A stretch of DNA of 64,000 nt, from assembly GCF_012932915.1 (NCBI RefSeq), contig NZ_VCQU01000003.1, positions 310,001 to 374,000 of the forward strand, in the 5' to 3' direction. The notes under the pieces were generated by a model. That model was given only the letters and a program-made list of their open reading frames with translations. It was not told the origin of the DNA and searched no databases. This DNA is from Antrihabitans stalactiti (GTDB lineage: Bacteria; Actinomycetota; Actinomycetes; Mycobacteriales; Mycobacteriaceae). The stretch's first letter is position 1. The number at the start of each line of letters is the position of its first letter. The translations under genes and the position numbers were made by a program. Shown here in pieces: positions 46,631 through 60,705 of the stretch.

Positions 46631-46664
46631 CGTCGCGTTCTGCATGTCGATCTCGATAACGCTA

Positions 46665-46676
46665 TTATTCCGATAG
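46665..46676 (+). promoter_or_regulatory. Shared regulon operator, site A
   Basis: TTATTCCGATAG, within ATAACGCTATTATTCCGATA and followed by GTGAC. It matches the regulon core TTATTCGGATAA at 10 of 12 positions and lies upstream of the TetR gene at 46776. Site D resembles its whole 24-base context (18/24). Confidence 0.65.
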
Positions 46677-46686
46677 TGACTTGCCC

Positions 46687-46738
46687 ACCCTCGTGAGTCT
46701 ATTAGGAGTCCAGGGACTCCTAAAAGACTCACGAGGGT
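46687..46738. repeat. Dispersed palindrome, copy 3 (25-bp arms, one mismatch)
   Basis: Arms 46687-46711 and 46714-46738 pair with one mismatch. The core is GTGAGTCTATTAGGAGTCC. It is located after the P450 gene and before the TetR gene, and shares the core with copies 1 and 2. Confidence 0.85.
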
Positions 46739-46775
46739 AGGTGGGTATCGCGATCGATATGTAGAGGGGGACGAC

Positions 46776-47402
46776 GTGGCGGCCCGGAAGGTACTGACCC
46801 GCGCCGAAACTCAGGCGCAAACGCGTGAGGATCTGCTCGACGCTGCCGAGAAGTTGTTTCTTGCCAATGGTTATCACGTCACGTCGATCGCCACGATTGC
46901 GGCCGAAGCCGGTCGGACCGTCGGCGCCGTCTACAGCAACTTCGCGAACAAAGAAGAGTTGTGCATCGAAGTACTGAAGCGTCGGTCGGCTGGTGAATTG
47001 TCGAGCCTTATCACTGCCCTCGCGACATCGGGGGACGATTTCGACGGCCGTCTGGACGCGATCGCGATCTGGTGGCGGCGGGTTTCCTCGCAGACCGACG
47101 TCGTGAACTTGATCGCCGAGTACCTGCTGAGCATCGTTCGAGATCTCGATCGCCGCGCGGAGGCCGTGGAAACGATTTCTCGGTTCATCGAATCCGCTCA
47201 GGCGATAACCGAGGAGTACTTGCCGATGGGGGTCTCGCCGTCAGAGGAGGCCACAAATGAGGCGATGCACGCCATTCTCGCCACTGGCACCGGCCTGGCC
47301 GTATCGCAATCGGCCGGGATCATCGGAGTCGATGAGTCGGTGACCCTGCTGGTCAAGTCCTTCAAGTTGTGGATGGGTCAGCTGGCCGCGTCGCAGAAAT
47401 GA
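46776..47402 (+). CDS. TetR-family regulator, copy 1 of a paralogous pair
   Basis: The 208-residue protein (GTG start) has HTH VTSIATIAAEAGRTVGAVYSNFANKEEL at about 35-62. It is strikingly similar to the TetR at 59207-59839 (LLDAAE-LF, AGRTVGA-YSNFANKE, EVLKRR, ELSS shared). Sites A (upstream) and B (downstream) flank it, so it probably controls itself and the reductase 86 bases downstream. The two paralogues bracket the monooxygenase cluster. Confidence 0.93.
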   Translation: MAARKVLTRAETQAQTREDLLDAAEKLFLANGYHVTSIATIAAEAGRTVGAVYSNFANKEELCIEVLKRRSAGELSSLITALATSGDDFDGRLDAIAIWWRRVSSQTDVVNLIAEYLLSIVRDLDRRAEAVETISRFIESAQAITEEYLPMGVSPSEEATNEAMHAILATGTGLAVSQSAGIIGVDESVTLLVKSFKLWMGQLAASQK

Positions 47403-47420
47403 GTAATTGAAAGAGTGCCA

Positions 47421-47432
47421 TTATTCGGATAA
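47421..47432 (+). promoter_or_regulatory. Shared regulon operator, site B
   Basis: TTATTCGGATAA, a near-palindrome, 56 bases before the reductase ATG. It is followed at 47451 by ATCCCGATCTGG, a word that also follows site C (58835), 11 bases closer there. Confidence 0.7.
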
Positions 47433-47487
47433 CATCTATATCTAGAAATGATCCCGATCTGGGGTCGTGGGTGTAGAGAGGTCCGAG

Positions 47488-48525
47488 ATGAGCGCCTACG
47501 TTCACGAAGTACGGGTGCGCGAGGTGATCGCGGAAACTGCCGACTCGGTGACCTTGGTCCTGGACGTATCGGACGAGGTAACGCCAAGGTTCGATTACGA
47601 GTGCGGGCAATTTCTCACCGTCCGAATCCCGAGTCCCACAACCGGATCGGTGGCGCGGTGCTACTCGTTGTCGTCGAGTCCGCACGACCCCCACCTCGCC
47701 GTCACCATCAAGCGCACGGCGGGCGGATATGCATCGAACTGGTTATGCGACAACGTTGTTCCGGGTTCTTCGCTCGAAGTCCTCGAGCCTTCGGGAACTT
47801 TCGTTCCCGCATCGCTGGACCGTGATGTTCTGCTCTGCGCGGCCGGCAGTGGAATCACGCCGATCATGTCGATCGCAAAAACCGTTCTCGCTCGCGGCGC
47901 CGGCCGAGTAATCGTTCTGTACGCCAACCAGAACCGAGAGTCGACCATCTTTCATCGCCAGTTGGCCGAACTCGAGCAGGCCTACGCAGACCGCCTCGTC
48001 GTTGTCCATTGGCTAGTCGACGAGCGAGGCCTACCTACCGTCGACGGCCTGGCTGCGGAGATCCGCACGCATACCTTCGACGACGTATTCCTCTGCGGAC
48101 CAGCAGGTTTCATGAGCGAAGCCCACATTGCCCTGTCATCGATCGGTGTACCGGCCGAGCGGATCAGGCGCGAAGAGTACCGCTCGCTGGAAAGCAACCC
48201 TTTCGAATCAAGCACTACCGCAACGCAACCGACTCCGCCCCGGGGTGACCACCCGACTGTCGAGGTCGAAATCAACGGCGAGAACCACACGTTCGCGTGG
48301 CCGAAAAATCAGCCACTGTTGGATGTGTTGCTGGACAACGGTATCGACGCCCCGTACGTCTGCCGCGAATCCATCTGCGGCACATGCGTGTGCTCGGTGC
48401 GAAAGGGCAAGACGCGAATGCTGCTGAGCGACGCGCTGACCGACGAAGACATAGACATGGGCGTCACGCTCGCCTGTCAGACGCTCCCAGAATCGGATGA
48501 GGTCTATATCGCGTTCGATCAGTGA
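47488..48525 (+). CDS. Ferredoxin--NAD(P)H reductase fused to [2Fe-2S] ferredoxin (KshB-like)
   Basis: The protein has 345 residues. The FAD domain has RCYSLSSSP (57-65), and the NAD domain GSGITPIMS (about 121-129) and FLCGPAGFM. The C-terminal plant-type ferredoxin ligands are C292, C297, C300 and C330 (CX4CX2CX29C). It passes electrons from NADH to an oxygenase, as KshB does for 3-ketosteroid 9-alpha-hydroxylase or HmpA-type partners do. No Rieske oxygenase is in the window, so the partner may be the diiron-like PF10118 protein or lie elsewhere. Start ATG at 47488 after GAGAGG. Its last seven bases overlap the convergent ABC1 kinase gene. Confidence 0.92.
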   Translation: MSAYVHEVRVREVIAETADSVTLVLDVSDEVTPRFDYECGQFLTVRIPSPTTGSVARCYSLSSSPHDPHLAVTIKRTAGGYASNWLCDNVVPGSSLEVLEPSGTFVPASLDRDVLLCAAGSGITPIMSIAKTVLARGAGRVIVLYANQNRESTIFHRQLAELEQAYADRLVVVHWLVDERGLPTVDGLAAEIRTHTFDDVFLCGPAGFMSEAHIALSSIGVPAERIRREEYRSLESNPFESSTTATQPTPPRGDHPTVEVEINGENHTFAWPKNQPLLDVLLDNGIDAPYVCRESICGTCVCSVRKGKTRMLLSDALTDEDIDMGVTLACQTLPESDEVYIAFDQ

Positions 48526-49904
48526 TTGCCGGTCGCAGTTCGCCACTCCGCGATTGCTCGACCGATGTCGGTGGCCGGCGGATCGCCGTACGCCCATTCG
48601 CGGGCGATGCGATGCCAGTTGTTCGTCGAATTGAGCTGCCCGAGAACGCCGAACGTGAAGAAGTCGGCTCTACGGGAGAACACGTGCTCTGCGGGGAGTT
48701 GCTGGCGACGTATGCCGGTGAACTGTGCTGCGGATGCGCGTGGGTCGATTGCGAGGATCAGGGCGCCGGTAGCCAATTCCGGTGTGATGGTGAGGGGTTC
48801 GTCCAAGAGATGCCAGCCGGCGGCTGACCGTAGATAGTCGAGACACTCTGCCGGTATGACGTTCGACGTCGGATCGACGATGCCGCGTCCGACCATGAGT
48901 CGGTACAGCTCATCAGCGTCTTCCTCGCACGCGGCTCGCAACAGCGCGCGCTCGAAGTCGACGTTGACCGGATCCATCCGGTTGTACAGACCGAAGTCGA
49001 TGAAGGCGACCATTCCGTCGGCTCCCACAAGGACGTTGCCGGGGTGGGGATCGCCGCAGAATTCGTTGTGGCTGAACATCGAGCCGATGTAGAAGCGGTA
49101 GATCAACTCGCCGATGTGGTTGCGATCGGCCTTCGGCAGCGCGCGCATGCGGTCGAACGGCATTCCGTCGAAGAATTCCGTGACCAGGACGTGGGGTGAC
49201 GAGTGCTCGACGACACTGTCGGGGATTGTGATGAACGGATGGCCTTGATACCGCTGCGAGACGGCATGTTGGGTGCGCGCTTCGGCCTCGTAGTCGAGCT
49301 CGCTCTCCAGGTTTCGCGCGATCTCGTCGAAGATGGAGTTGTCTTTCAACGTCGGCCAGAACGGCGCGGCGAGCTTGCCGAAGAACTTGAGATTGCGCAT
49401 GTCGGCACGAATGGCGTCGTCCACACCCGGGTACTGGACCTTGACGGCAACGGCCCTGCCGTCGCGCAGTGTGGCGCGGTAGACCTGCCCGACCGACGCC
49501 GCCGCGATGGCGGACTCGTCGAAGTCTCGGAATACACCGCGCAGTGGTCCGAGGTCGGTCTCGATCACCTTCCGCATTGCGGAAAACGGCGCCGCGGGTG
49601 CTTGATCTCGCAGTGCCGCGAGTTTCTCGCGGAACACTTCGCGGTGCGACTCTGGTATGAGGTCGAGGTCGAGCACGGACAGCATCTGTCCGATCTTCAT
49701 AGCCGCGCCTTTCATGGTGCCGAGGACCATGACAAGTTGTTCGGCGGCTTGCATCGTCGAACGTTCCGCAAGGATCGCACGTGCCCGGTCGGACCGGCCG
49801 ATCATCGATATGCGCGTACCCGCGCCGCGCACGGCCTGCTCAGCGGCCAATCGGCCAAGTTTTCCGCCCCGCGCGACCCGGGATTTCGGAACTCGACCTG
49901 CCAC
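48519..49904 (-). CDS. ABC1/AarF (UbiB-type) atypical kinase
   Basis: The 461-residue protein has the KxGQ signature (MKIGQMLSVLD at about 69-79), the ATP-binding AVKVQYPG Lys, catalytic EFCGDPHPGNV and metal-binding AFIDFGL. Such kinases support quinone or isoprenoid lipid metabolism by an ATPase-like activity. It lies 54 bases after the unknown gene at the end of the long operon, so it may or may not share the transcript. Confidence 0.92.
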   Translation of the reverse strand: MAGRVPKSRVARGGKLGRLAAEQAVRGAGTRISMIGRSDRARAILAERSTMQAAEQLVMVLGTMKGAAMKIGQMLSVLDLDLIPESHREVFREKLAALRDQAPAAPFSAMRKVIETDLGPLRGVFRDFDESAIAAASVGQVYRATLRDGRAVAVKVQYPGVDDAIRADMRNLKFFGKLAAPFWPTLKDNSIFDEIARNLESELDYEAEARTQHAVSQRYQGHPFITIPDSVVEHSSPHVLVTEFFDGMPFDRMRALPKADRNHIGELIYRFYIGSMFSHNEFCGDPHPGNVLVGADGMVAFIDFGLYNRMDPVNVDFERALLRAACEEDADELYRLMVGRGIVDPTSNVIPAECLDYLRSAAGWHLLDEPLTITPELATGALILAIDPRASAAQFTGIRRQQLPAEHVFSRRADFFTFGVLGQLNSTNNWHRIAREWAYGDPPATDIGRAIAEWRTATGNH

Positions 49905-49958
49905 CAGCTACCTCCGCCTGCGTTTCGCCTGACCATACCCCCGGGCACTGGGCGTTTG

Positions 49959-50642
49959 TCATGCCTCCAACTCGAGAACGCAGCGCGGATTCCAGGGCAG
50001 CGGTCCGCTGGGGAAGCTGAACCGGAGCATCCGGTGCGATCCGTGCGCGTCCATGTGCAATATGAACGGCGGAAGGAATCCCGCCACCACCTTGTCGAGC
50101 AGGCCGTTGATGTGGTTGAAGCTCGGCCGGATGCGGACCTGCCAGGCATCGAACGATCCGGCCCCGATCTTCATAGTCGTGCGCTTCTCGACCTTGACCT
50201 CGAGTGGCCACACCACCGAGAAAGCCAGCCATAGATCGTATTTGGCCTTCGAACCACGTTGGAAATCGAGGCCGCGAAGCAGTGTTGCGGCGCTGAGCAG
50301 TGGCATCGTGCCTGAGGGGAACGGGCCGACTTCGCCACCGAACTGCAAGTGCTGAGTGTCGACGAAGTAGCCCTCTTCGCGTGAGACGACTTTGCCCGCG
50401 AATAGTGATGCCGCTTTGTAGCTCTCCATCACGAGCGACCCCTTGGATCGCTGGATCCGCTGCTCGACCTTCATGCTGTATTGATCGTCGGAACCGGTGT
50501 TGATCGAGGCGACGTAGGCCTCATCGCCGTCGTGTTCGACGATGCTCGTTAGCTGGCCTGTCGCGGGGGCATCGCCCACCTTGATCGAGTAGACGGACTT
50601 CTCGCCATCGGCGATCCCTGGATCGCGGAACGGTGTAATCAT
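49959..50642 (-). CDS. Uncharacterised protein in monooxygenase operon
   Basis: The 227-residue protein has no signal peptide and no membrane helix that I can see. It has alternating beta-strand segments (GQLTSIVEHDGDEAYVASI; LEVKVEKRTTMKIGAGSFDAWQVRIRPSF), reminiscent of the DUF3108 barrel fold that binds lipids. I do not recognise the family with confidence. It starts 12 bases after the methyltransferase stop in the operon, so a role in handling the operon's lipid-like substrate is possible. Confidence 0.75.
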   Translation of the reverse strand: MITPFRDPGIADGEKSVYSIKVGDAPATGQLTSIVEHDGDEAYVASINTGSDDQYSMKVEQRIQRSKGSLVMESYKAASLFAGKVVSREEGYFVDTQHLQFGGEVGPFPSGTMPLLSAATLLRGLDFQRGSKAKYDLWLAFSVVWPLEVKVEKRTTMKIGAGSFDAWQVRIRPSFNHINGLLDKVVAGFLPPFILHMDAHGSHRMLRFSFPSGPLPWNPRCVLELEA

Positions 50643-50654
50643 AATCGGAACCTC

Positions 50655-51416
50655 TCAGTAGGTCGGTTTGACAGCAGAGACGGTTTGCGCGAGTCCGCTG
50701 GTGTGCTGTCCGATCTCGGTGAAACCGGTCTGGCGGAGGCCGCCGGTGATGGCTGCGCGGCTGAACATGGTTATACCGCTGAGCTTTTCGAGTGGTTTGG
50801 CCGGAATTCCCCGCGGTGCAAGGCTGGTCAGGATCACGATTCGGCCGCCTGGCTTGAGAACTCGGAAGATCTCCTCGATCGCGTCGAATGGCTTGTTGAT
50901 GAGGTAGAGCGCTGCGAGGCAGCTGACCGCGTCGGCGACGCTGTCGGCGAACGGCAGCTTCTCGGCATCCCCGCGGACGTAGGCGACTGCTGGTCCTGAG
51001 TTGTCGGCAACTGCTCGGCGCAGCATCTGGTGCGAGGCGTCGACGCCGACGGCCAAGCCGCCGGGAAACGCCTGCGCTCCGAACCAGCCGGTGAAATTAC
51101 CGGGACCACAACCGATATCGAGCACGGTATCGCCAGGCTGCAGGCGCAGGAGCCCAGTGATCCGAGCCCGTTCGGCGTCGGCGTTCGACCCGATCGCGCC
51201 GGCAAGGACGCGATAGCCGATCGGTCGGAACAGCTGATAGCCGGTGGAGTAGAGGGTGGTGCGCATGAGGCGCTGCGCGAAGCTGCGGGTCGGCGGCGCC
51301 GTTTCGCCGAGCGTGTCGAGGTAGCCGTCGCGAGAGACTGCGGCACCCCGGCATCGGGTTGGGTCGAGCAGCTCAGCCGTGCGGCTGACGGGTGTGGGCG
51401 ATGCTATGCGGGTCAT
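50655..51416 (-). CDS. Class I SAM-dependent methyltransferase (operon member)
   Basis: The 253-residue protein has SAM loop VLDIGCGPGNFT (about 98-109), VGVDASHQML and RVLKPGGRIVILTSL, the UbiE/COQ5-like pattern. The N-terminal 60 residues are variable. It lies 27 bases after the esterase and 12 bases before the uncharacterised gene. It could methylate a carboxyl or hydroxyl made by the operon's oxygenases. Confidence 0.9.
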   Translation of the reverse strand: MTRIASPTPVSRTAELLDPTRCRGAAVSRDGYLDTLGETAPPTRSFAQRLMRTTLYSTGYQLFRPIGYRVLAGAIGSNADAERARITGLLRLQPGDTVLDIGCGPGNFTGWFGAQAFPGGLAVGVDASHQMLRRAVADNSGPAVAYVRGDAEKLPFADSVADAVSCLAALYLINKPFDAIEEIFRVLKPGGRIVILTSLAPRGIPAKPLEKLSGITMFSRAAITGGLRQTGFTEIGQHTSGLAQTVSAVKPTY

Positions 51417-51443
51417 GGTGGTCTCTTTCGTCGAGAAGTATTG

Positions 51444-52505
51444 TCAGGCAGTGGATTTGACCGACCAGATCGACGGTCGCACAGCCTCGGCATCGAGAAT
51501 GCGCCGCACGAACGTCGCGACTTCCTCGATCGCATCCCGCGCGTCGGGCAGCAGGTCGGCGGCAATCTGGAAGACGTGAAAGGCGTTGTCCCAGATCTGA
51601 AGTTTGAGCGGCACACCGCCTTCGGCGCAGCGCGCCGCGAGGAGTTCGGCATCCGAGAGCAGCACTTCGGTCGACCCGACGTGTATCAGAGCCGGCGGGA
51701 GCCCGTGGAAGCTGCCGTTGACAGGTGACCACGCCGGATCCAGTTCACCGTCGACGGCGATGCCCCATTTCGCGGGCAATGCATAGCCGTCTGCGGAGAT
51801 CAGCGCGTCGACCGGGTTGTTCGGATGGGTTTGCCGGATCGTCGAGTCGTAATTCGCCCACGGCGACATCGCGACGACAGCGGCCGGCAACGGCAGATTT
51901 CGGTCCCGAGTAGCCATCGCTAGCGAGAAAGACAAACCACCCCCGGCGGAATCGCCCATGACAATGATGCGCTCCGCAGGGAAGCCCTGGTCCAACAGGT
52001 ATCGGTAGGCGTCCACGCAATCATCGACCGTCTCGGTGACGTGTGCCTGCGGGATCTGCCGGTAGTCGACGTTGAGGAGAGGGACGCCGCACGTTCGGGC
52101 GATGCGCGCGACCAGCCGGCGGTGCGAGTTCAGCCCACACGCCAGCAGCCCGCCGCCGTGAAAATAGATGATCGCGCTGCCCTTGTCGATGGCGGGGTCG
52201 GCAACGCTCTTGTCCCACACCCACTCCGCACGGAACTGCGGGAACTCGACCATTCGCAACTGGGTTCCCCGCCGTGGGCGCAGCGGCAGCAGCAAGCGGT
52301 CAACCCGCGTGGTGATCGGGAGCGCCACCCGCGGACCGATGACGTTGGTCTTTTCGGCCCACACCGCCGCGTCGAGCGCCTTGCGAATCGTGGACTGCAG
52401 TACGGAATGCGTGATCCGGAGCGTTCGACTCGATCTGCGTGGTAGCTCCGCGACTACCGGCGGGTGGAGCGGCGACACGGTCGCAAGGTCTGGGGCTGTG
52501 GTCAC
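51444..52505 (-). CDS. HSL-family esterase (LipR/Est-like alpha/beta hydrolase)
   Basis: The 353-residue protein has the oxyanion motif HGGG (FHGGGLLACG, about 115), the nucleophile GDSAGGG (Ser about 185) and the late WDNAFHVFQI with the catalytic His. The hormone-sensitive lipase group cleaves short or bulky esters, exactly what Baeyer-Villiger oxidation would produce. The mycobacterial mymA operon has a comparable gene (lipR). It starts one base after the stop of the enoyl reductase-like gene. Confidence 0.92.
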   Translation of the reverse strand: MTTAPDLATVSPLHPPVVAELPRRSSRTLRITHSVLQSTIRKALDAAVWAEKTNVIGPRVALPITTRVDRLLLPLRPRRGTQLRMVEFPQFRAEWVWDKSVADPAIDKGSAIIYFHGGGLLACGLNSHRRLVARIARTCGVPLLNVDYRQIPQAHVTETVDDCVDAYRYLLDQGFPAERIIVMGDSAGGGLSFSLAMATRDRNLPLPAAVVAMSPWANYDSTIRQTHPNNPVDALISADGYALPAKWGIAVDGELDPAWSPVNGSFHGLPPALIHVGSTEVLLSDAELLAARCAEGGVPLKLQIWDNAFHVFQIAADLLPDARDAIEEVATFVRRILDAEAVRPSIWSVKSTA

Positions 52506-52506
52506 G

Positions 52507-53772
52507 TCATTTCCTCGCGTCGAGTCGTTCGCATTCCAGGTGGATCAGGTCTGATTCATTGAGCCGCTCGACAAGTACGTCACCGAACGCGGCAACGGTT
52601 GTGAGGACGCCGGCAGCCGGTGGCAGGCGGTCTTCGTCGCGGACCAAGGCAAGTGCGCACTCGCCGATCATGATGGACGTCATGACGTACCCGGGGTCGC
52701 AGTCAGCCTGCAGTCGAGCGACGTATCGCGCGCCGGTCGTTGTGCGCGTGTAGGTTTCGACGGTGAGTGAACCGTTGTCGGTGATCGTCTCGCCCGGGCC
52801 GGATCCCGGCTTCGGCAATGCGAAATCGATAAGCCGACGGACCGGGGGAAGTGCGAAGGCGCCCAAACCAATTGCGTAACCAGCAGTAATGACACCGGCG
52901 GCAACTGTCGACACGATCGGCCGCTGCGTGACGGAGAGCGCCTCGCTGTACCGGAATTCTGGTCCGTACGCGCCGTCGAGCAACGCGTTTGTGCGGCGCA
53001 CGACCCTAGCGTTGTAGAACGACGCAATGAACGGTGCCAGGGTTCCCTTCAGCGACGGGTCCACCGAGGCACCACGCACGATCCGGATGTCCCGCGGTTG
53101 GCGGGTGCGCGGTCGAGCTGGCCGATCGGGGCTGTCGGTAAGGGAATCCGGATCGAGCATCATCCGGAGGAAGCCCTTCTTGAACGCCTGCTCGGCATAC
53201 ACCCGCCCGGTATCGACCGATCCACCCGACACCCAGCCCACGATCTTGCGCAACACCATGGTCGTGTCGGTCAGCGTGCCTTGATTGTCTTGTGCCGCAG
53301 CCTTGTACAGCAGATAGACCGGCAGATCTGAAGGAATGGAGTCGAATCCGGCGGAATGGATGATCCGCGAGCCGTTCGCCACGGCTTGCTCGTGGTACTT
53401 GTCGATCGACCATCGAACGAACGGGACTTCGGCAGTGAGGTCGAGGTAGTGGCAGCCCGCATTCACCGCAGCGGCAAGGAGATTCTCACCGTAGCGCAGC
53501 CATGGACCGACACTCGTGACGATCACCTTCGTGCGCGCCGCCATGGCGTCCAACGTCGACGGAGTATCGACGTCGGCGACGATCAGCGGCCACTGCGCAG
53601 CCCGGCTGGGTAGCGAGCTGCGGATCTTCTGCAGCTTCTGCAAGCTACGGCCGGCTAGCGCGATCGACACGTCGGTCGGTGCATGCGCCGCGAGGTAGCG
53701 GGCGTTCGCCGCCCCGGAGAATCCGGTGGCACCGAAGACGACGATGTCGAACTCACGATCGTGGTTGGTCAT
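52507..53772 (-). CDS. Saccharopine dehydrogenase-like / trans-acting enoyl reductase family protein
   Basis: The 421-residue protein starts with the Rossmann loop VVFGATGFSGAANARYL (about 11-27). It continues with GPWLRYGENLLAAAVNAGCHYLDLTAE and HSAGFDSIPSDL, the signature of the group containing the mycobacterial trans-acting enoyl reductase Rv2953. The C-terminal half is hydrophobic and may contact the membrane. It would reduce a double bond using NADPH. Its start overlaps the PF10118 gene (ATGA). Confidence 0.9.
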   Translation of the reverse strand: MTNHDREFDIVVFGATGFSGAANARYLAAHAPTDVSIALAGRSLQKLQKIRSSLPSRAAQWPLIVADVDTPSTLDAMAARTKVIVTSVGPWLRYGENLLAAAVNAGCHYLDLTAEVPFVRWSIDKYHEQAVANGSRIIHSAGFDSIPSDLPVYLLYKAAAQDNQGTLTDTTMVLRKIVGWVSGGSVDTGRVYAEQAFKKGFLRMMLDPDSLTDSPDRPARPRTRQPRDIRIVRGASVDPSLKGTLAPFIASFYNARVVRRTNALLDGAYGPEFRYSEALSVTQRPIVSTVAAGVITAGYAIGLGAFALPPVRRLIDFALPKPGSGPGETITDNGSLTVETYTRTTTGARYVARLQADCDPGYVMTSIMIGECALALVRDEDRLPPAAGVLTTVAAFGDVLVERLNESDLIHLECERLDARK

Positions 53773-54686
53773 CGCAGCCGATCCACCAGTTCACCGTTGG
53801 CGCCGAAGAGCTTCAATTGCCATTCCTGGACGAGGTCTTCGGTGTCGATGTCGTCGGGATGGAAGCCTGGGCGCATGAACTCCGCGAGCTCGCCGAGCAG
53901 GCCCTTGAGCAGCGGGCCTCGCGCGACTTCGATGGCTTGTCGGGCAACGATGAGCGGATGCCAGGAATCGCGATCGCGCAGGATCGAGAGCAGCAGTAGG
54001 GGCCCGAGGACCGGGTACAGACCGACGACGACGACCGCCATGCTGCCGATGCGCGCGATCTCTGAGCCGCCGACATACCTGTAGGCGTCGAACATCACCG
54101 ACTTGTGTTCGAGTTCCTCCAGCGCATGCCAGGTGAGCAATTTCAGGGCCTCTGGATCGGCGCCCGGCATGTTGTAGAGCTCTTCGTTCGACAACATCCG
54201 ACGACCGAGAGTCGCGGTGATGTGCTCGAGCATCGCCGTCACACCCATGTGGAGCTTCACCCCGGCGAAGTCTTCGATCTTCACCAACGCTTTGAAGCTT
54301 TTGGTTCCCTCTCGAAGAACGGTCATGACGCTGTTTGCGACCGGGTACCGCAGATTGGCGAGATGCTCGTCGTTGAGCCGGTCGTGTTCCTGGCTGTGCA
54401 CCAGTTCCTGGCCGACGAATCCGACGACGCGCTTCTTGAGTACGGGGTCGTCGATGTCTTTCATGAACTTCTTGACGGCGCGAAGCATCGTTTCCTCACC
54501 CAGCGGGATCGCCGCGTTGCCGAGCGCCAAGCCGTGGCTGAGCGGGATGTTCCCGTTGATGAAGAGGTGCTCCATCGGTGCCGCTTCGCCGAACCGGAAG
54601 CGCATGCGCCGGACCTTCGGTGGGGTCGTGTCCTTCGCCGTGCGGAGCGGGGTCTTTTCTTTGCGGAGAATCGATGTCACGGACAT
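53769..54686 (-). CDS. PF10118 metal-dependent hydrolase / diiron-like protein
   Basis: From the ATG at 54686 the protein has 305 residues. It is all-helical, with two E-xx-H type pairs, GQELVHSQEH (about 132-141) and ALEELEHKSVMFDAY (about 210-224), spaced like the ligands of a ferritin-like diiron site. It has one hydrophobic helix near 235-260. The family is annotated as metal-dependent hydrolase, but an oxygenase role is conceivable and is my inference. It is 16 bases after the monooxygenase gene and overlaps the enoyl reductase-like gene by four bases. Confidence 0.87.
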   Translation of the reverse strand: MSVTSILRKEKTPLRTAKDTTPPKVRRMRFRFGEAAPMEHLFINGNIPLSHGLALGNAAIPLGEETMLRAVKKFMKDIDDPVLKKRVVGFVGQELVHSQEHDRLNDEHLANLRYPVANSVMTVLREGTKSFKALVKIEDFAGVKLHMGVTAMLEHITATLGRRMLSNEELYNMPGADPEALKLLTWHALEELEHKSVMFDAYRYVGGSEIARIGSMAVVVVGLYPVLGPLLLLSILRDRDSWHPLIVARQAIEVARGPLLKGLLGELAEFMRPGFHPDDIDTEDLVQEWQLKLFGANGELVDRLR

Positions 54687-54702
54687 GGTGAACTCACTTT
54701 CC

Positions 54703-56259
54703 TCAGGCGGAAGCGGAAATGGTTGTCGGCAATGCCTTCTCGGCGACGCGTTCGTAGCGGTAGTCGTCGAGCGGGTACTTACGATTGCCGCGGCTGGCTT
54801 CGAAGAAGCCCTGCGGTCGCAGATACGTCGTGTCGCCTTGCGAGTTGCGGTAGTAGGTCGGCACATGTGCGTTCAGTTCGGCCAGGTAGTAGCGCTGCGA
54901 TTCGCCCAGGCGGTAGATCTTCTCGTGGTACGCCTCGGCGGCGTCCTTGCGGATCTCGCACACGTCGGCGCCGCGGCGGTGTGTTTCCTTGATGGCGCGG
55001 ACAGCGTGATCGGCGGTCATTTCGACGAACGAATGCCACCCGGAGCCGGTCCAGGAGTACGGGCCGCACAAGGTCCAGCGATTGGGCAGCCCTGGGACGG
55101 AGACACTTTCGTACGCCTGCAAGCCCTCCTCGTTGTAGAACTTCGCGAGGTCGAAGCCGTCACGACCGAGAACCGTTCCAGGACGGTAGGTTTCGGGATC
55201 GGAGAACACCTCGTAGCCGGTCGCGAGGATCAGTACGTCGAGCTTGTGCAGCACACCGTCGCGCGTCTTGACACCGGTCGGCGTGACCTTCTCGATCGAA
55301 TCGGTGATCAGCGAGACGTTGTCGCGGTTGTAGGTCCGTAGGTAGGCAGACGAGATGGTCGGCCGTTTGGCGAGCGGTCCGAAGTTCGGCGTCAGCTGTT
55401 CCGCCGTCGCCGGGTCCTTGACCACGCGTCTGATATAGCGCCGGTACGCCGAGATCGCTGTTGCGTCGAACCGGTCCATCGCCGGATGTACAAGCCGGGC
55501 AGGGGGTTTGACCATCGCGCGGAAGAGTAGGTCCATCGCCACGAGTGCGACTCCGTGCAATGCAGGCTGCACGCCAGGGATGGCAAGGGTGCGCTGTACC
55601 GCACGGGGAACGGTGAAGTCCGGTTTCGGGACCGACCACACCGGCGTTCGTTGAAAGACCGTGAGGTGTTTGACGTCCGGCGCGATGGTCGGGACGATCT
55701 GCACTGCACTGGCGCCCGTGCCGATGATGCCGACGGACTTGCCTGACATATCGAAGTCGTCGTCCCACGAACTCGGGCGTTGCACTTTGCCTTTGAAGGT
55801 CTTGGCTCCAGGGATGCCGACGTCTTCCTTGGGGCGAACGAACGCGCCGACGGCACTGATCAGAAAACGGGCGGTGATCGTCGAATCGTTGTCGAGGTGG
55901 AGCGTCCAGAAGCGGCCGGCGTCGTTCCATTCTTCGCGTTCGACGTTGACGCCGAACGTGATTCGGGGATAAAGGCCGAACCGTTTTGCGACGTCGACGT
56001 GGTACTGCTTGACCTCCGCACCGCGTGGAAAGATTCGGCTCCAGTCGGCCTTGCGCGCAAACGAGTACTGGTAGGCGAGCGCAGGGACGTCGACGCCCAG
56101 TCCCGGGTAATGATTTTCGTTCCAGCTACCGCCGACGTCGTCGGCGCGTTCGAGGATGACGAAATCGTCGATCCCGGCTTTGCGCAGTTTGGCTCCTGCA
56201 GCGATTCCGGCTGGTCCGGCACCGATCACCGCCACCTCGTACTGTGGCTTGCTGTTCAT
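54703..56259 (-). CDS. Baeyer-Villiger-type flavin monooxygenase, copy 2 (degenerate fingerprint)
   Basis: The 518-residue protein has FAD loop GAGPAG (13-18), GGSW and NADPH loop GTGASAVQ. The class B fingerprint reads F155xG157xxxArg161xxxW165, with Arg in place of the usual His. It shares LTPNFG-KRP and SWTGSGWHSF-like segments with copy 4. It overlaps the SDR stop by four bases and precedes the PF10118 gene by 16 bases. The substitution may alter or abolish Baeyer-Villiger chemistry. Confidence 0.92.
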   Translation of the reverse strand: MNSKPQYEVAVIGAGPAGIAAGAKLRKAGIDDFVILERADDVGGSWNENHYPGLGVDVPALAYQYSFARKADWSRIFPRGAEVKQYHVDVAKRFGLYPRITFGVNVEREEWNDAGRFWTLHLDNDSTITARFLISAVGAFVRPKEDVGIPGAKTFKGKVQRPSSWDDDFDMSGKSVGIIGTGASAVQIVPTIAPDVKHLTVFQRTPVWSVPKPDFTVPRAVQRTLAIPGVQPALHGVALVAMDLLFRAMVKPPARLVHPAMDRFDATAISAYRRYIRRVVKDPATAEQLTPNFGPLAKRPTISSAYLRTYNRDNVSLITDSIEKVTPTGVKTRDGVLHKLDVLILATGYEVFSDPETYRPGTVLGRDGFDLAKFYNEEGLQAYESVSVPGLPNRWTLCGPYSWTGSGWHSFVEMTADHAVRAIKETHRRGADVCEIRKDAAEAYHEKIYRLGESQRYYLAELNAHVPTYYRNSQGDTTYLRPQGFFEASRGNRKYPLDDYRYERVAEKALPTTISASA

Positions 56260-57152
56260 GCGCTCACCCGATCGAGCACGCTCATCAGCCGGACGCCTGC
56301 AGCTTCGAGGCGTTCGACGGGGAACTGCCGCAAGATGCCCCGGGTAACCGAGGGCGCGATGCGATACATGGCGTAGGTGAGCCAGGCTTCGGTGCGAACC
56401 GGAACGACGTCGAGGTCGAAGCGGACGCCGCGGACGGCTGCTCGAGCCACAAGGTCCGGGCTGAGCGGAGAGATCGGCAGTGTGTCGACGAAATCTCTGA
56501 CCCGATCGAGGATTCCAACTCCATCCTGGAACAGATTCGCGTCGATACCGACCGTCTCGGCGTGATTGCCGAGATTGGTGTTGATCAGCCCGGGGCAGAT
56601 CGACGTGGCGCTGACGCCCTTCGGACCCAATTCGACTCGGAGACAGTCGGTCAGCATCCGGACGCCGGCTTTCGAGACGTTATACGCGGAGGTTCCCGGC
56701 ACAGGTGTGTACGACGCCGCGGAGGCGATGTTGACGATGTGGCCTCTGCCGAGTTCAGCCATCTGCCTGCCGAATACGAGGCTGCCGTACACGACACCCA
56801 TCAGGTTCGGCCCGAGCTGGCGGTCCCACGACTGCGGTGTCGTGTCGAGGAAGGCTCCTGCGACGACCAGGCCGGCGTTGTTCACGAGCACGTCGGCGAC
56901 GCCGAACTTAGCCCGGATGTCAGCGGCGACTCGCTCCCACGCGTCGGGGTCGGTCACGTCGAGCAGCGCCGATGACGCACGGTCGCCGTTGGCTTCGATG
57001 AGGGCGACCGTCTCGTCAGCGGTCCTGAGGTCGATGTCCGAGACGACAACGTGTGCGCCGAGTTTGGCGAATCGGAGCGAGATCGCCCGACCGATTCCGC
57101 TACCCGCACCGGTCACCACTACGAGCTTCGGCTGTAAACGGTTGATCTTCAT
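56256..57152 (-). CDS. Short-chain dehydrogenase/reductase (operon member)
   Basis: From the ATG at 57152 the protein has 298 residues. NAD(P) loop TGAGSGIGRA is at 15-24, NNAG near 91, and YNVSK holds the catalytic Tyr and Lys at about 160-164. It overlaps both neighbours by four bases (ATGA), tightly coupling it to the two monooxygenases. An alcohol-to-ketone step before, or reduction after, Baeyer-Villiger oxidation fits. The mymA operon has a similar SDR (sadH). Confidence 0.95.
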   Translation of the reverse strand: MKINRLQPKLVVVTGAGSGIGRAISLRFAKLGAHVVVSDIDLRTADETVALIEANGDRASSALLDVTDPDAWERVAADIRAKFGVADVLVNNAGLVVAGAFLDTTPQSWDRQLGPNLMGVVYGSLVFGRQMAELGRGHIVNIASAASYTPVPGTSAYNVSKAGVRMLTDCLRVELGPKGVSATSICPGLINTNLGNHAETVGIDANLFQDGVGILDRVRDFVDTLPISPLSPDLVARAAVRGVRFDLDVVPVRTEAWLTYAMYRIAPSVTRGILRQFPVERLEAAGVRLMSVLDRVSA

Positions 57153-58729
57153 GATCGGGACTCCTCGAGTTCCAGCGGCCGTGTGCTTTGGGCCAGCAAT
57201 GCCGAATAGCGATAGTTGTCCAGCGGGAAATGCTTGTTTCCCCACCACATTTCGAGGTGGGTACTGGGCCGGATGGTTGCGGCGTCGCCCTGGTAGTTGA
57301 CGTAGTACGTGTTGGACCCCTCGCAGGCGGGCGAGAGCCACATCGTCTTCTCACCGCGGCGGCGGTACTTGTCGTAGTAGGCGTCGTGTGCGGCTTGCTT
57401 GATCTCCACCTTCGTGGCGCCGCGCCGCTTGGATTCGGCGATTGCTCGCGCCGCGTGGCGACTGGTGCACTCGATCATCGCGAGGTACGAGCCCGCGGCG
57501 AACCCGTACGGTCCGGTGATCAGGAATGCATTCGGGAATTTCGGCACCGAGACGCCTTGGTAGGCCTGAAAGCGGTTTTCGTCCCAGAACTGGTTCAGAT
57601 CGAGACCGTCGATGCCGCGCATCGGATACGGGGGAGTGGTGCCCTTGCCCATGACCTTGAATCCGGTGGCGCACACAAGGACATCGATATCGCGAACAGT
57701 CCCGTCCTCAGTTGCGACGCCGTTCTCGGTGATCTTCTGAATCGGTGTGGTGACCAACTCGACGTGCGGCCTGGTGAACGTCTTCAGGTAGCGGTTGGAG
57801 ACTGACGGACGTTTGCACCCGGGGGCGTACTCCGGCGTAAGTTGCTGCGTGAGTTCAGGATTGCCGCGCAGCCAGACCTTGTAGCCTCGGGCTCCGCCAC
57901 GCTCGAGGGCTTCGGCGAGAAACGGGACACGCTCGTGGAATACCCCGATTCCGGTGATGCCGAAGTCGATCGCGACGGTGACCGCGGCGCGGATGCTACG
58001 GCGCAGTACCGGCATGTTCAGCAGTGCGGTGCTGACCGCCGAAGGAATCGGAAAGTCGGGCTTCGGTGCGACCCAGATCGGGGTTCGCTGGAACACGGTC
58101 AGCTGCTCGGCGATGTCGGCGAGCTCCGGGATCAATTGCAGCGCAGTCGCTCCTGTTCCGATGCCGGCGATGCGCTTGCCCGTGTAGTCGTAGTCGTGGT
58201 CCCACCGCGAGGTGTGGACGACCTTCCCGGCGTAGGTGTCGATTCCGGGAATGTCGGGCAGCTGGGGGATCTCGAGCGCGCCGATAGCGCCGACGATGTA
58301 GCGCGCGACGAGGGTCTCGCCGGTGTCCAGTCCGACGCGCCAGACGTGGTTGTCGTCGTCCCATACAGCGCTCTGCACCGTCACGCCGAGTTTGATCCGC
58401 GACCGCAGGTTGTAGGAATCCACGACTTGCTCCGCATACTGCTTGACCTCGGCCCCCGGCGCGAACATGCGCGTCCACTTCTTCGGAGGTTCGTAGGAGA
58501 AGCTGTAGTAGATCGACGGAATGTCCACGGCGACACCGGGATAGGTGTTCGCGTGCCAGGTACCGCCGATCCCGTCGTTCTTGTCGACGATGAGGAAGTC
58601 GTCGATCCCGGCCTTGGTCAACTGCACGCCCGTGCCGATACCGCCGAATCCCGCGCCGACGATGAGTACCTCGTGGTCGACTGCGCCCTCTCGCGGCGCT
58701 CGTATCGCGGCGGTCATCTCCGGCACCAC
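57149..58729 (-). CDS. Baeyer-Villiger monooxygenase, copy 3 (canonical)
   Basis: The 526-residue protein from the GTG at 58729 (an ATG at 58717 is possible) has GAGFGG (25-30), GGTW (55-58) and GTGATALQ. The fingerprint is intact: Y166xGxxxHis172xxxW176D. It should insert oxygen next to a ketone carbonyl, or oxidise sulfur, using NADPH. It is the promoter-proximal gene of the operon, about 87 bases downstream of operator site C. MymA/EthA-like monooxygenases are the closest functional models. Confidence 0.95.
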   Translation of the reverse strand: MVPEMTAAIRAPREGAVDHEVLIVGAGFGGIGTGVQLTKAGIDDFLIVDKNDGIGGTWHANTYPGVAVDIPSIYYSFSYEPPKKWTRMFAPGAEVKQYAEQVVDSYNLRSRIKLGVTVQSAVWDDDNHVWRVGLDTGETLVARYIVGAIGALEIPQLPDIPGIDTYAGKVVHTSRWDHDYDYTGKRIAGIGTGATALQLIPELADIAEQLTVFQRTPIWVAPKPDFPIPSAVSTALLNMPVLRRSIRAAVTVAIDFGITGIGVFHERVPFLAEALERGGARGYKVWLRGNPELTQQLTPEYAPGCKRPSVSNRYLKTFTRPHVELVTTPIQKITENGVATEDGTVRDIDVLVCATGFKVMGKGTTPPYPMRGIDGLDLNQFWDENRFQAYQGVSVPKFPNAFLITGPYGFAAGSYLAMIECTSRHAARAIAESKRRGATKVEIKQAAHDAYYDKYRRRGEKTMWLSPACEGSNTYYVNYQGDAATIRPSTHLEMWWGNKHFPLDNYRYSALLAQSTRPLELEESRS

Positions 58730-58815
58730 CGGATGAAAACCCTTGACCCAGAAGGATGAAGCATCGTTCGACTCCCTTGTCGTCCTAGCAAGAATGCGTC
58801 ATCCAAAGAGTAGCA

Positions 58816-58827
58816 TTATCCGAATAT
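58816..58827 (-). promoter_or_regulatory. Shared regulon operator, site C
   Basis: The minus strand reads ATATTCGGATAA, 11 of 12 with site B. It lies about 87 bases upstream of the first gene of the monooxygenase operon. ATCCCGATCTGG follows at 58835 on the plus strand. Confidence 0.65.
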
Positions 58828-58915
58828 CGACACAATCCCGATCTGGAACCAATGTGACCTGCAGTGCACTCCATCGCACGGCGAGGCACTCATCACATTC
58901 CGCTAAATAATGCTG

Positions 58916-58927
58916 TTATGTGAATAG
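58916..58927 (-). promoter_or_regulatory. Shared regulon operator, site D
   Basis: The minus strand reads CTATTCACATAA (9/12 with the core). The wider plus-strand context, beginning ATAATGCTGTTAT and ending ATAGTGA, matches site A at 18 of 24 positions. It is about 100 bases from site C. Confidence 0.55.
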
Positions 58928-59013
58928 TGATCGCATCTAGAGTTTGGGGAATCGCCCGACCTTGGAGTGGGGCGGATGTCCGAAGATGGTGTCCACAAAG
59001 GAGTGCGATCCGC

Positions 59014-59196
59014 ATGTTCGTTTCGAGTATCGATCCAGTTGCAGCAGCATTCGCAGGCCTGCTGGCGGTGTCACTTGTGTTGATGCACGATCCCGACGGC
59101 CTCGACTTTCGCCGACGAGAAGTGGCTGCGACGCGTCGGTCGCTCGGATCCGCTCAGCGCAATGCCGGGCGGGCGACGTGGAGCCGGCGGCGCTGA
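59014..59196 (+). CDS. Possible small protein (60 aa)
   Basis: From the ATG at 59014, preceded by AAGGAG nine bases upstream, this open frame encodes MFVSSIDPVAAAFAGLLAVS, then LVLMHDPDGLDF and a basic tail with RRR ends. One hydrophobic segment (about 9-24) followed by arginine-rich sequence suggests a small membrane protein. I recognise no family. It lies downstream of operator sites C and D, ten bases from the convergent TetR gene. Chance cannot be excluded. Confidence 0.4.
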   Translation: MFVSSIDPVAAAFAGLLAVSLVLMHDPDGLDFRRREVAATRRSLGSAQRNAGRATWSRRR

Positions 59197-59206
59197 GTTC
59201 GGTGGC

Positions 59207-59839
59207 TTACGACGGTTTCGGTCGAGAGCCTTCGAGTATCCGGGCGATCCGCAGTTGAAAGGCGTCGAGCAGCAGCGATCTCGACTCGTCGGTGTCGACG
59301 ATTCCAGCTGCTTGTGCGACCGACAGGCCGGCGGCGGTCGCAATGACGCCGCGCACCGCCTTGTCATACTCGACATCCGACGTGCTGAGGGGAAGATGCT
59401 CGTCGAGCAGGACCCGACCCGACTGGACCAGCCGTTCGATTCCCTCACGGGCCGCCGCCTGTCGTTCGGCGTCGCGCAACATCACCAATAAGTACTCGGC
59501 GCCGAGGGTGAGCAGATTCGAATCACTCGACAGGCGTGACCACCAGGCGACGATGACGTCGACGCGTGCGTCGAGGTCATCCGTCGCGCCGGCGAGGTCG
59601 GCGACGACGCTGGACAGTTCGGATGTACCCCGGCGTTTGAGTACTTCGAAGCAGATGTCTTCCTTGTTCGCGAAGTTGCTGTAGAGCGCACCCACTGTGC
59701 GACCGGCCGAAGCAACGATTGCCGCGACCGAAGTGCCGTGGTATCCGACCGATATGAATAGCCGCTCGGCGGCATCGAGAAGTTCCTCACGGATCAGTTC
59801 CCGTGATTCGTTGCGGCTCAACGCTTTCCGAGACGCCAC
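59207..59839 (-). CDS. TetR-family regulator, copy 2 of a paralogous pair
   Basis: From the GTG at 59839, with AAGGA upstream, the protein has 210 residues. HTH TSVAAIVASAGRTVGALYSNFANKEDI lies at about 36-62. It closely resembles the TetR at 46776-47402. It is divergent from the START protein-monooxygenase pair, with site E in the 242-base gap. It probably represses those genes and the operon to its left in response to the pathway substrate. Confidence 0.93.
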   Translation of the reverse strand: MASRKALSRNESRELIREELLDAAERLFISVGYHGTSVAAIVASAGRTVGALYSNFANKEDICFEVLKRRGTSELSSVVADLAGATDDLDARVDVIVAWWSRLSSDSNLLTLGAEYLLVMLRDAERQAAAREGIERLVQSGRVLLDEHLPLSTSDVEYDKAVRGVIATAAGLSVAQAAGIVDTDESRSLLLDAFQLRIARILEGSRPKPS

Positions 59840-59984
59840 GCCATTCCTTCGATGTCTGCAATCCGTTTCGTCGAGCCGCCGATCGCGATCGATGACACCC
59901 ATGACCCTAACGTGCGTACCACTGGCGCGCAGAAACCGACCAAACGTCAGGTTGCAAACGTTCGGCAATCAGTCGGCGGCGTAA

Positions 59985-60004
59985 GAATAGCGCTATTCAA
60001 ATAC
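59985..60004 (+). promoter_or_regulatory. Shared regulon operator, site E with palindrome
   Basis: GAATAGCGCTATTC (59985-59998) is a perfect 14-base palindrome. It overlaps CTATTCAAATAC (59993-60004), which matches the regulon core at 8 of 12. It sits between the TetR copy 2 and START-protein genes. Confidence 0.6.
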
Positions 60005-60081
60005 TGACAATATCTTGATAGTGTCGTCATGTCGGCCGAGCGGTTCGACTCCGACGGACCCATCAATCAACGGAGACACGA

Positions 60082-60705
60082 ATGGGAATCATGTCCGTAC
60101 TACACAGGCAGCGTCCTGCAGCGACGGAAGTCGACGACGCCACCATCGCCAACGCCTCGCTCACCTTCACTGTCCGCCGGACGTTCGACGCGTCGGTCGA
60201 GGCAGTTTGGGAAGCCATCGACGACGACCATGCCTGGGAATGGCTGCCGTTCCCAGGAGTCGGCGTTCGCTACGACTCACCCGAGCGCGGTGTCGGCGTC
60301 ATCCGCGAGATGGGCAGCGTTCACGGCATCGTTCGCGCGCTCTGGGTTGAGCGGGAACGCTTTTGGCGCTACGAGCCACAGGAGCGCATCACGTTCGGCG
60401 TTGTCAGCGGCACGTGGATCCAGTACCTCCTGGTGCGCGAGTACGCCGAGAACATGGAATTTGCACCGAACTCTTCTGGCGGCACCGATGTGAAGTGGGA
60501 TGTCGCAGTCACGCTGCGATTGCCACTCCGGTTCACCAAGTACGCACCGGCGGTGTGGCGCTTGGCATATCGCGAAGTCGGCCTGGGCTTGCTTATGCAG
60601 CGGCGGGTCGCTGCCGTTGAGGCGCTGCGAGAACCACCCACTCAGACGACTAACGGACACCGGCCGAGCCGACTGACCAAAGCATCGGCAGGAGAACGGA
60701 AATGA
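60082..60705 (+). CDS. SRPBCC (START-like) family protein, cluster member
   Basis: The 207-residue protein has the polyketide-cyclase/START pattern (LTFTVRRTFDASVEAVWEAIDDDHAWEWLPFPG) and a C-terminal amphipathic helix (WRLAYREVGLGLLMQRRVAAVEAL). Such proteins bind hydrophobic ligands. Start ATG at 60082 after GGAG; 60091 is an alternative. Its stop overlaps the next monooxygenase start (ATGA), so it may present or sequester that enzyme's substrate or product. Confidence 0.88.
   Translation: MGIMSVLHRQRPAATEVDDATIANASLTFTVRRTFDASVEAVWEAIDDDHAWEWLPFPGVGVRYDSPERGVGVIREMGSVHGIVRALWVERERFWRYEPQERITFGVVSGTWIQYLLVREYAENMEFAPNSSGGTDVKWDVAVTLRLPLRFTKYAPAVWRLAYREVGLGLLMQRRVAAVEALREPPTQTTNGHRPSRLTKASAGERK

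Follow-up and report, generated by a model that had tools for sequence, protein, structure and literature searches.

The window analysed here comprises bases 310001-374000 of contig C20 (64 kb) in the 6.76-Mb genome of Antrihabitans stalactiti. Its right-hand part carries genes for three flavin monooxygenases (FMO1 to FMO3), further enzymes and two TetR-type regulators, with a recurring palindromic motif, the predicted operators A to E, in the gaps in front of them. Domain families of the window proteins were assigned with Pfam and NCBIfam (17 proteins scanned), and positions are those of the window unless the contig is named. The features of the locus, with G003 denoting a genome of the same genus and G256, G257 and G300 further relatives, are the following:

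46661 to 46680: operator A (predicted), upstream of TetR-1; 5/6 core partner 17 bp leftward; the G003 ortholog is preceded by a similar site
46776 to 47402, plus strand: TetR-1; PF00440, E 1.3e-13; G003 ortholog 76% identical
47417 to 47436: operator B (predicted), upstream of the reductase; 5/6 core partner 17 bp rightward
47488 to 48525, plus strand: FAD/NAD/2Fe-2S reductase with PaaE-like domain order; PF00970, PF00175, PF00111
48519 to 49904, minus strand: ABC1/UbiB-like atypical kinase; PF03109, E 3.7e-59; beside TetR homologs in G256, G257 and G300
49959 to 50642, minus strand: conserved protein of 227 aa; nothing matched in Pfam or NCBIfam at E<=0.001
50655 to 51416, minus strand: class I methyltransferase; PF08241, E 2.2e-22
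51444 to 52505, minus strand: hormone-sensitive-lipase-family esterase; PF07859, E 5e-44
52507 to 53772, minus strand: saccharopine-dehydrogenase-like protein (SacDH); PF03435, E 3.2e-11
53769 to 54686, minus strand: PF10118 protein, predicted ferritin-like diiron; PF10118, E 1.7e-55
54703 to 56259, minus strand: FMO2, Baeyer-Villiger monooxygenase (BVMO)-like, fingerprint His replaced by Arg (FKGKVQRPSSWD)
56256 to 57152, minus strand: short-chain dehydrogenase (SDR); PF00106, E 1.3e-49
57149 to 58717, minus strand: FMO1, BVMO with fingerprint His (YAGKVVHTSRWD)
58812 to 58831: operator C (predicted), in front of the long operon; FMO1 of G003 is preceded by a similar site
58912 to 58931: operator D (predicted), 82 bp upstream of the small open reading frame (ORF); a lower-scoring site (15.7) occupies the corresponding G003 gap
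59014 to 59196, plus strand: 60-aa ORF with one hydrophobic stretch; counterpart in G003
59207 to 59839, minus strand: TetR-2; PF00440, E 7.1e-14; GTG start picked by alignment to TetR-1
59989 to 60025: tandem operator E/E2 (predicted), in the TetR-2/SRPBCC gap; sites at 59989 and 60006, 17 bp apart
60082 to 60705, plus strand: SRPBCC (START-like) protein; PF10604, E 4e-11
60702 to 62300, plus strand: FMO3, FMO/BVMO-like (YTGVSMHPATWD)

The gene set is larger than the original prediction had assigned to 46665-60004, including FMO3, the ABC1 kinase and the small ORF, and the end at 60004 does not hold, FMO3 and more extending past it.

All five sites were located where they had been proposed. 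Read in one register, A (46661, GCTATTATTCCGATAGTGAC), B (47417, GCCATTATTCGGATAACATC), C (58812, AGCATTATCCGAATATCGAC), D (58912, GCTGTTATGTGAATAGTGAT) and E (59989-60008, AGCGCTATTCAAATACTGAC) share TAT-N4-ATA within a 20-bp imperfect palindrome, with a consensus of about CAC-TATTC-GAATA-GTG. They lie at promoters, as had been claimed, although site D fronts the 60-aa ORF that had been missed. The window was ranked with a position-weight matrix built from 17 sites of other genomes, and the background consisted of twenty 20-kb segments in other parts of the same genome (400 kb, 6% of its 6.76 Mb). Sites A to E scored 20.1, 21.6, 23.2, 21.8 and 23.1 and took ranks 1-5 in the 64 kb, which agrees with the earlier statement that no such sites occur elsewhere in the window. 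Rank 6 was the partner of E at 60006 (16.7) and rank 7 scored 12.6; the best background score was 16.0, and none of the 399,620 background positions scored as high as A to E. The foreign sites had initially been selected by a matrix derived from sites A to E, so that the two sets of sites are not independent; the independent part is where the foreign sites sit, namely beside TetR genes and outside coding stretches.

In the whole genome, the pattern RYTATYCRNATARY without mismatch gave 4 rows compared to 2 for the control, and its three places were B, D and C20:392753. The same 14-base pattern, longer than the core, fitted 30 places with one mismatch, and both TAT and ATA were kept at seven of them: A, B, C, D, E, 392023 and 392753, all within 36 kb. 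This count, for which rows were sorted by eye, is a census of one-mismatch fits and not of every TAT-N4-ATA. The specific feature is TAT and ATA kept together with their flanks, not the plain number of rows, and sites that keep the core intact are infrequent in the genome, the original prediction having named genome-wide frequency of the motif as the outcome that would speak against it. The last two places adjoin another TetR gene and monooxygenase cluster 18 kb past the window (C20:385809-392769, window coordinates ~75,800-82,770), which encodes a further TetR protein with 34-37% identity to TetR-1, has FMO1-, FMO2-, esterase- and SRPBCC-like genes of its own and carries the motif as well. 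A weaker match of 15.1, below the best background score of 16.0, was seen at C20:376995 (window coordinate 66,995) just upstream of an SDR-like gene pair; similar SDR pairs adjoin FMO1 in the relatives G257 and G205.

Relatives of TetR-1 at E<=1e-45 were found in 7/301 genomes of the family, and orthologs of the PF10118 protein at E<=1e-100 in 2/61 relatives, A. stalactiti included in both counts. G003 holds the whole set, with identities of 76% for TetR-1, 90% for FMO1, 95% for the SDR, 84% for FMO2, 93% for the PF10118 protein, 90% for SacDH, 80% for the esterase, 82% for the methyltransferase, 64% for the 227-aa protein, 90% for the ABC1 kinase, 73% for the reductase, 93% for FMO3, 81% for the SRPBCC protein and 81% for TetR-2. 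The order of the long operon (FMO1, SDR, FMO2, diiron-type protein, SacDH, esterase, methyltransferase, 227-aa protein, ABC1 kinase) and the sites at the promoters are retained there, although the TetR-2/SRPBCC/FMO3 segment is found on the opposite side of the block. Sites were found in G003 upstream of TetR-1, the reductase, the FMO1 operon and the small ORF, as well as in the TetR-2/SRPBCC gap; with the matrix from the window's own sites, the small-ORF site scored 15.7 and the other four 17.2 to 25.7. An additional G003 site at 2738 (17.8) has no named counterpart.

Using the matrix from the five window sites and a cutoff of 16, we scanned 179,023 bases around six TetR-1 relatives. This returned 15 matches, compared to 0/399,620 positions of the A. 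stalactiti background. All 15 avoid the stretches with homology to window proteins, which leave 58% of the bases free, and they are distributed over 5/6 loci (G003, G256, G257, G205, G300). Besides G003, sites adjoin TetR-1 relatives in four genomes of three other genera. With sites recurring at the corresponding G003 promoters and beside TetR-1 relatives in four more genomes (G057, the sixth locus, has none), the idea of a regulon gained ground, and the predicted shared control of these promoters by one TetR clade is well supported by sequence comparison. Within the fetched stretches, FMO1 at >=76% and FMO2 at >=68% identity were present in the same five genomes, and the PF10118, SacDH, 227-aa, reductase, FMO3 and SRPBCC genes were not in all six foreign loci.

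Both regulators carry a TetR_N domain (50.9 and 51.8 bits against a Pfam cutoff of 24). They had been called near-duplicates; at 49% identity over 203 residues they are instead diverged paralogs. Their recognition helices read GRTVGAVYSNF in TetR-1 and GRTVGALYSNF in TetR-2, and the corresponding helix of the TetR protein in the second cluster (TetR-3, C20:392095) is GRTQGAIYGNF. A more distant relative on contig C9 of the same genome has His in that helix place, with no such site in its 20 kb (best score 8.2). By sequence, palindromic sites are present in the promoters of both TetR genes and of their predicted targets, and the site in front of each TetR gene fits autoregulation. One could suppose that TetR-1 and TetR-2 differ in preferred sites or inducers and command two nested regulons of common ancestry. 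The 49% identity and the retention of separate orthologs in G003 are compatible with this; the almost identical recognition helices, one matrix scoring all sites and the occurrence of the same motif at TetR-1 (A) and at TetR-2 (E) argue against it, and we regard this alternative as unlikely.

Among genomes with names, relatives of TetR-1 came only from Kaistia defluvii (56%, residues 4-78) and a Polyangia metagenome-assembled genome, and the Kaistia defluvii stretch contained no FMO match. A search of plasmids yielded no close relatives, the best identity being 46.2% for FMO1 and 36.5% for TetR-1. More distant TetR relatives (loci L041, L043, L045 and L040), some of them beside other FMO genes, seem by eye to have differing palindromes (TTGCAAT-like) nearby.

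To describe the spacing of neighbouring sites, the core alone was scored at every offset from 21 anchors (5 in the window, 16 foreign). A partner with >=5/6 core letters exactly 17 bp to one side was found for 9/21 anchors, and the other 50 offsets between 10 and 60 together gave three such partners, one of them at 34. In the window, the partners have 5/6 letters for A, 5/6 for B and 6/6 for E. The second cluster contains matches at C20:391986, 392003 and 392020 (12.6, 15.1 and 18.8), each 17 apart, and one more at 392750 (21.9). We read the 17-bp register as a probable operator array on which at least two dimers would fit, and binding to it might be cooperative, by likeness with EthR and Rv0078.

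Three flavin monooxygenases had been proposed and three are present, but FMO2 lacks the His of the BVMO fingerprint. In FMO1, the fingerprint FxGxxxHxxxW(P/D) is satisfied by YAGKVVHTSRWD with Y for F, and both GxGxx(G/A) Rossmann motifs were found. Its nearest solved relatives are cyclohexanone monooxygenases, with that of Thermocrispum municipale as the best PDB match; cyclohexanone monooxygenases are also the nearest solved relatives of FMO2, which carries FKGKVQRPSSWD with Arg at the His position. FMO1 thus shares both Rossmann motifs and the fingerprint His with type I BVMOs, while FMO2 has Arg instead. FMO3 contains YTGVSMHPATWD, and only the first Rossmann motif was found in it by the expression used. 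The His was kept in 12/12 relatives of FMO1 and the Arg in 10/10 relatives of FMO2 at >=53% identity, counting the own copies and excluding open frames aligned over <350 residues, one of which is a 78-residue FMO2 piece in G057. Below 53%, the expression did not match an FMO2-like protein at 49%, and another at 41% carries Ile. Among the FMO1-like proteins in this range, one at 43% and one of two at 35% keep His, and the other 35% protein carries Leu. A His-type enzyme is also encoded in 10/10 loci with an Arg-type FMO2; as the loci were chosen by their TetR-1 relatives, the count is no survey of all Arg-type enzymes. Excerpts of three papers define BVMOs by the fingerprint His and mention no Arg form (PMC9044951, PMC7570161, PMC10682829). 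It is conceivable, though doubtful, that FMO1 (His) and FMO2 (Arg) make up a two-flavoprotein unit at the centre of the regulon, FMO2 performing a different reaction or entering a mixed complex, under a TetR clade that would polymerise along 17-bp operator arrays, each array with its own induction threshold. The genome is rich in FMO/BVMO-like genes: a search with FMO1 gave 45 matches at E<=0.001, some being pieces of one gene.

In the PF10118 protein, E64, E94xxH97, E154 and E191xxH194 are invariant in 7/7 homologs, and E...ExxH...E...ExxH is the classic diiron ligand pattern. The structural model is all-helical with a mean pLDDT (predicted local distance difference test) of 73, and 41 of its best 50 Foldseek matches are ferritin-like or diiron-type proteins by title, including R2-like oxidases, ribonucleotide reductase R2, aldehyde deformylating oxygenases and others, though no match is significant. 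The reductase has the domain order FAD-NAD-2Fe-2S, and its best NCBIfam match is PaaE with 226 bits, below the cutoff of 421. From the residue pattern, the predicted helical fold and the domain order of the reductase, a diiron hydroxylase fed by a PaaE-like reductase is a fair guess. The AlphaFold model of the 227-aa protein (mean pLDDT 34) was not used. One locus in G205 (L061/L062) has four PF10118-family matches, one of 48 residues, together with duplicated SDR and FMO1 genes.

The small ORF at 59014-59196 encodes MFVSSIDPVAAAFAGLLAVSLVLMHDPDGLDFRRREV... and has AAAGGAG before its start. Its G003 counterpart carries a 6-residue insertion and shares 65% identity across 48 columns (E 1.3e-14), and 13 other sequences searched gave nothing better than E 0.01. 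Across the 42 codons shared by the two genomes there are 10, 3 and 12 differences at codon positions 1, 2 and 3, which weakly favours the ORF being coding. A scan of 58700-60100 found no sigma-70-type promoter.

The interpretation that we favour, with moderate confidence, is a local catabolic regulon that TetR proteins repress through tandem operators. TetR-1 and TetR-2, whose recognition helices are nearly the same, would bind as dimers to the 20-bp palindrome with its TAT-N4-ATA core, which several promoters carry in two copies 17 bp apart. They would thereby keep five transcription units closed as well as their own genes where these are separate: the long operon, the reductase, the small ORF, the SRPBCC-FMO3 pair and both TetR genes. 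A hydrophobic substrate or intermediate, most likely a ketone or alcohol intermediate, would free both repressors. The diiron protein and the reductase would then hydroxylate the compound, the SDR would turn the alcohol into a ketone, FMO1 (perhaps FMO3) would insert oxygen to give an ester or lactone, and the esterase would open it, with the SRPBCC and 227-aa proteins handling a poorly soluble compound. Here we infer repression rather than activation, cooperativity, the inducer, the enzyme order and the substrate class. The ketone or steroid-like oxidation route of the original prediction is plausible by the families involved, but families say nothing on the substrate. The acmA/acmB genes of Gordonia act in subterminal alkane/ketone oxidation, where, as proposed here, a BVMO turns a ketone into an ester; the gene set and regulation at our locus are larger. 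An excerpt on BVMO_4041 of Rhodococcus erythropolis XP reports conversion of medium-chain aliphatic ketones and a tested Baeyer-Villiger step of subterminal alkane oxidation (PMC12724338).

Several results weigh against this interpretation. The core by itself is useless as a search pattern: the 12-base core TTATTCGGATAA (literal core TTATNCGGATAA) with one mismatch gave 11 rows in the whole genome vs 10 for the control, and the one-mismatch 14-base pattern gave 40 rows at its 30 places vs 42 control rows. Sequence-model scans of the genome were set aside, 20 bp carrying too little information: the one trained partly on own sites (R1) returned 7 rows with E 3 to 7, placed at B, C, E and 392752 only and missing A and D, and the one trained without them (R2) returned 392752 only (150/490 and 150/522 candidates scored, best E 3.1). 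At the locus of G057, whose TetR-1 relative is 54% identical, there is no such site, and no reductase gene turned up in the parts of G256, G205, G300 and G057 that were retrieved. The tandem pair is not universal, 12/21 anchors being without a 5/6 partner, and the 17-bp partners of C and D have 4/6 and 3/6 core letters. None of the Foldseek matches of the PF10118 model reached E<=0.001 (best E 0.076, TM-scores at most 0.5). Finally, SacDH, the methyltransferase and the ABC1 kinase have no place in the proposed enzyme order, and the ketone chemistry, plausible as it is, follows family names.

The same regulon could also serve a different end, with enzymes that remodel the envelope lipids of the cell itself under stress rather than degrade an outside compound, as with mymA. 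The mymA operon of Mycobacterium tuberculosis contains FMO/BVMO, SDR and esterase genes, and its regulator VirS is of the AraC type. It is described in a paper title as important for the envelope, and the methyltransferase, ABC1 kinase, SacDH and SRPBCC genes of our locus would suit such a role. Like mymA, the long operon combines an FMO/BVMO with SDR and esterase genes, so the resemblance noted in the original prediction stands, but not membership: unlike mymA, the locus has TetR_N regulators instead of VirS, three FMOs, the PF10118 protein and the ABC1 kinase. No Pfam domain of an acyl-CoA ligase or acyltransferase, both encoded with mymA, was present among the 17 proteins scanned, and the sporadic distribution (7/301 for the TetR-1 type, 2/61 for the PF10118 ortholog) fits an accessory catabolic set better. 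We therefore give a role in envelope lipids only a small chance.

An even smaller one applies to a xenobiotic response like that of EthR/EthA or EthR2, in which a foreign hydrophobic ligand would be detoxified without growth. EthA is an FMO/BVMO whose gene adjoins that of its TetR repressor EthR, and our locus repeats this arrangement of a TetR gene beside a flavin monooxygenase gene; EthR reportedly octamerises cooperatively. In the PDB, TetR-1 does match Rv0078 (EthR2) with E 3.4e-8, but the likeness is limited to residues 7-113 and is no better than that of several other TetR chains, and none of the best 60 of 82 PDB matches was recognised as EthR from its name. Moreover, ten enzyme genes including an esterase and an SDR exceed the needs of simple detoxification. 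The published excerpts describe EthR2-EthA2 as TetR-controlled oxidative-enzyme genes (PMC13234193) and Rv0078 as binding a 21-bp operator with two dimers, the second shifted by 7 bp (PMC6016246). In M. tuberculosis as here, a TetR-family repressor stands beside an oxidative enzyme gene, and EthR and Rv0078 place more than one dimer on an operator, as the paired 17-bp sites suggest for our locus. Unlike EthR/EthR2, the locus has a pair of paralogous regulators, five or more promoters, a TAT-N4-ATA core and a 17-bp register (7 bp in Rv0078), a distinction drawn on these features and not on operator sequences.

That A to E resemble each other by chance or as promoter elements without a common regulator is very improbable: the unenriched 12-base core and one-mismatch 14-base pattern would fit this, but the exact-pattern places, the matrix ranking, the foreign-locus sites, the 17-bp spacing and the core-keeping 7/30 subset do not.

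Some neighbouring elements were not counted as part of the regulon. The P450 gene (45206-46630) and the MMPL genes to the left of site A were left out because neither has a match in 40 kb around TetR-1 of G003. Between site A and TetR-1, a palindromic repeat at 46684-46741 (28-bp arms, 93%) was rejected as a second operator because it is a copy of a high-copy genome-wide family, with >=80 rows on both strands at ~40 places of the genome (best 40 of 226 candidates), 72 rows in G003 and none at E<=0.001 in G001 and G002. For SacDH, we take 'trans-acting enoyl reductase' to be an applicable label.

TetR-controlled oxidative genes are already known; the set described here is larger and has its own operator, and what is unusual is the array spacing and the Arg-type FMO2. 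Among the matches listed from the open-licence literature (subscription journals mostly lying outside it), titles and abstract starts did not describe this operator or gene set. The conserved replacement of His by Arg in a BVMO-like enzyme, with a normal one in the same locus, poses a concrete question of enzymology. The data also suggest that PF10118, named 'Predicted metal-dependent hydrolase' in Pfam, may contain a family of hydroxylases. For a TetR clade tied to flavin monooxygenases, there is now a comparison-tested operator motif together with a defined gene set, which makes reporter-based searches for the ligand possible.

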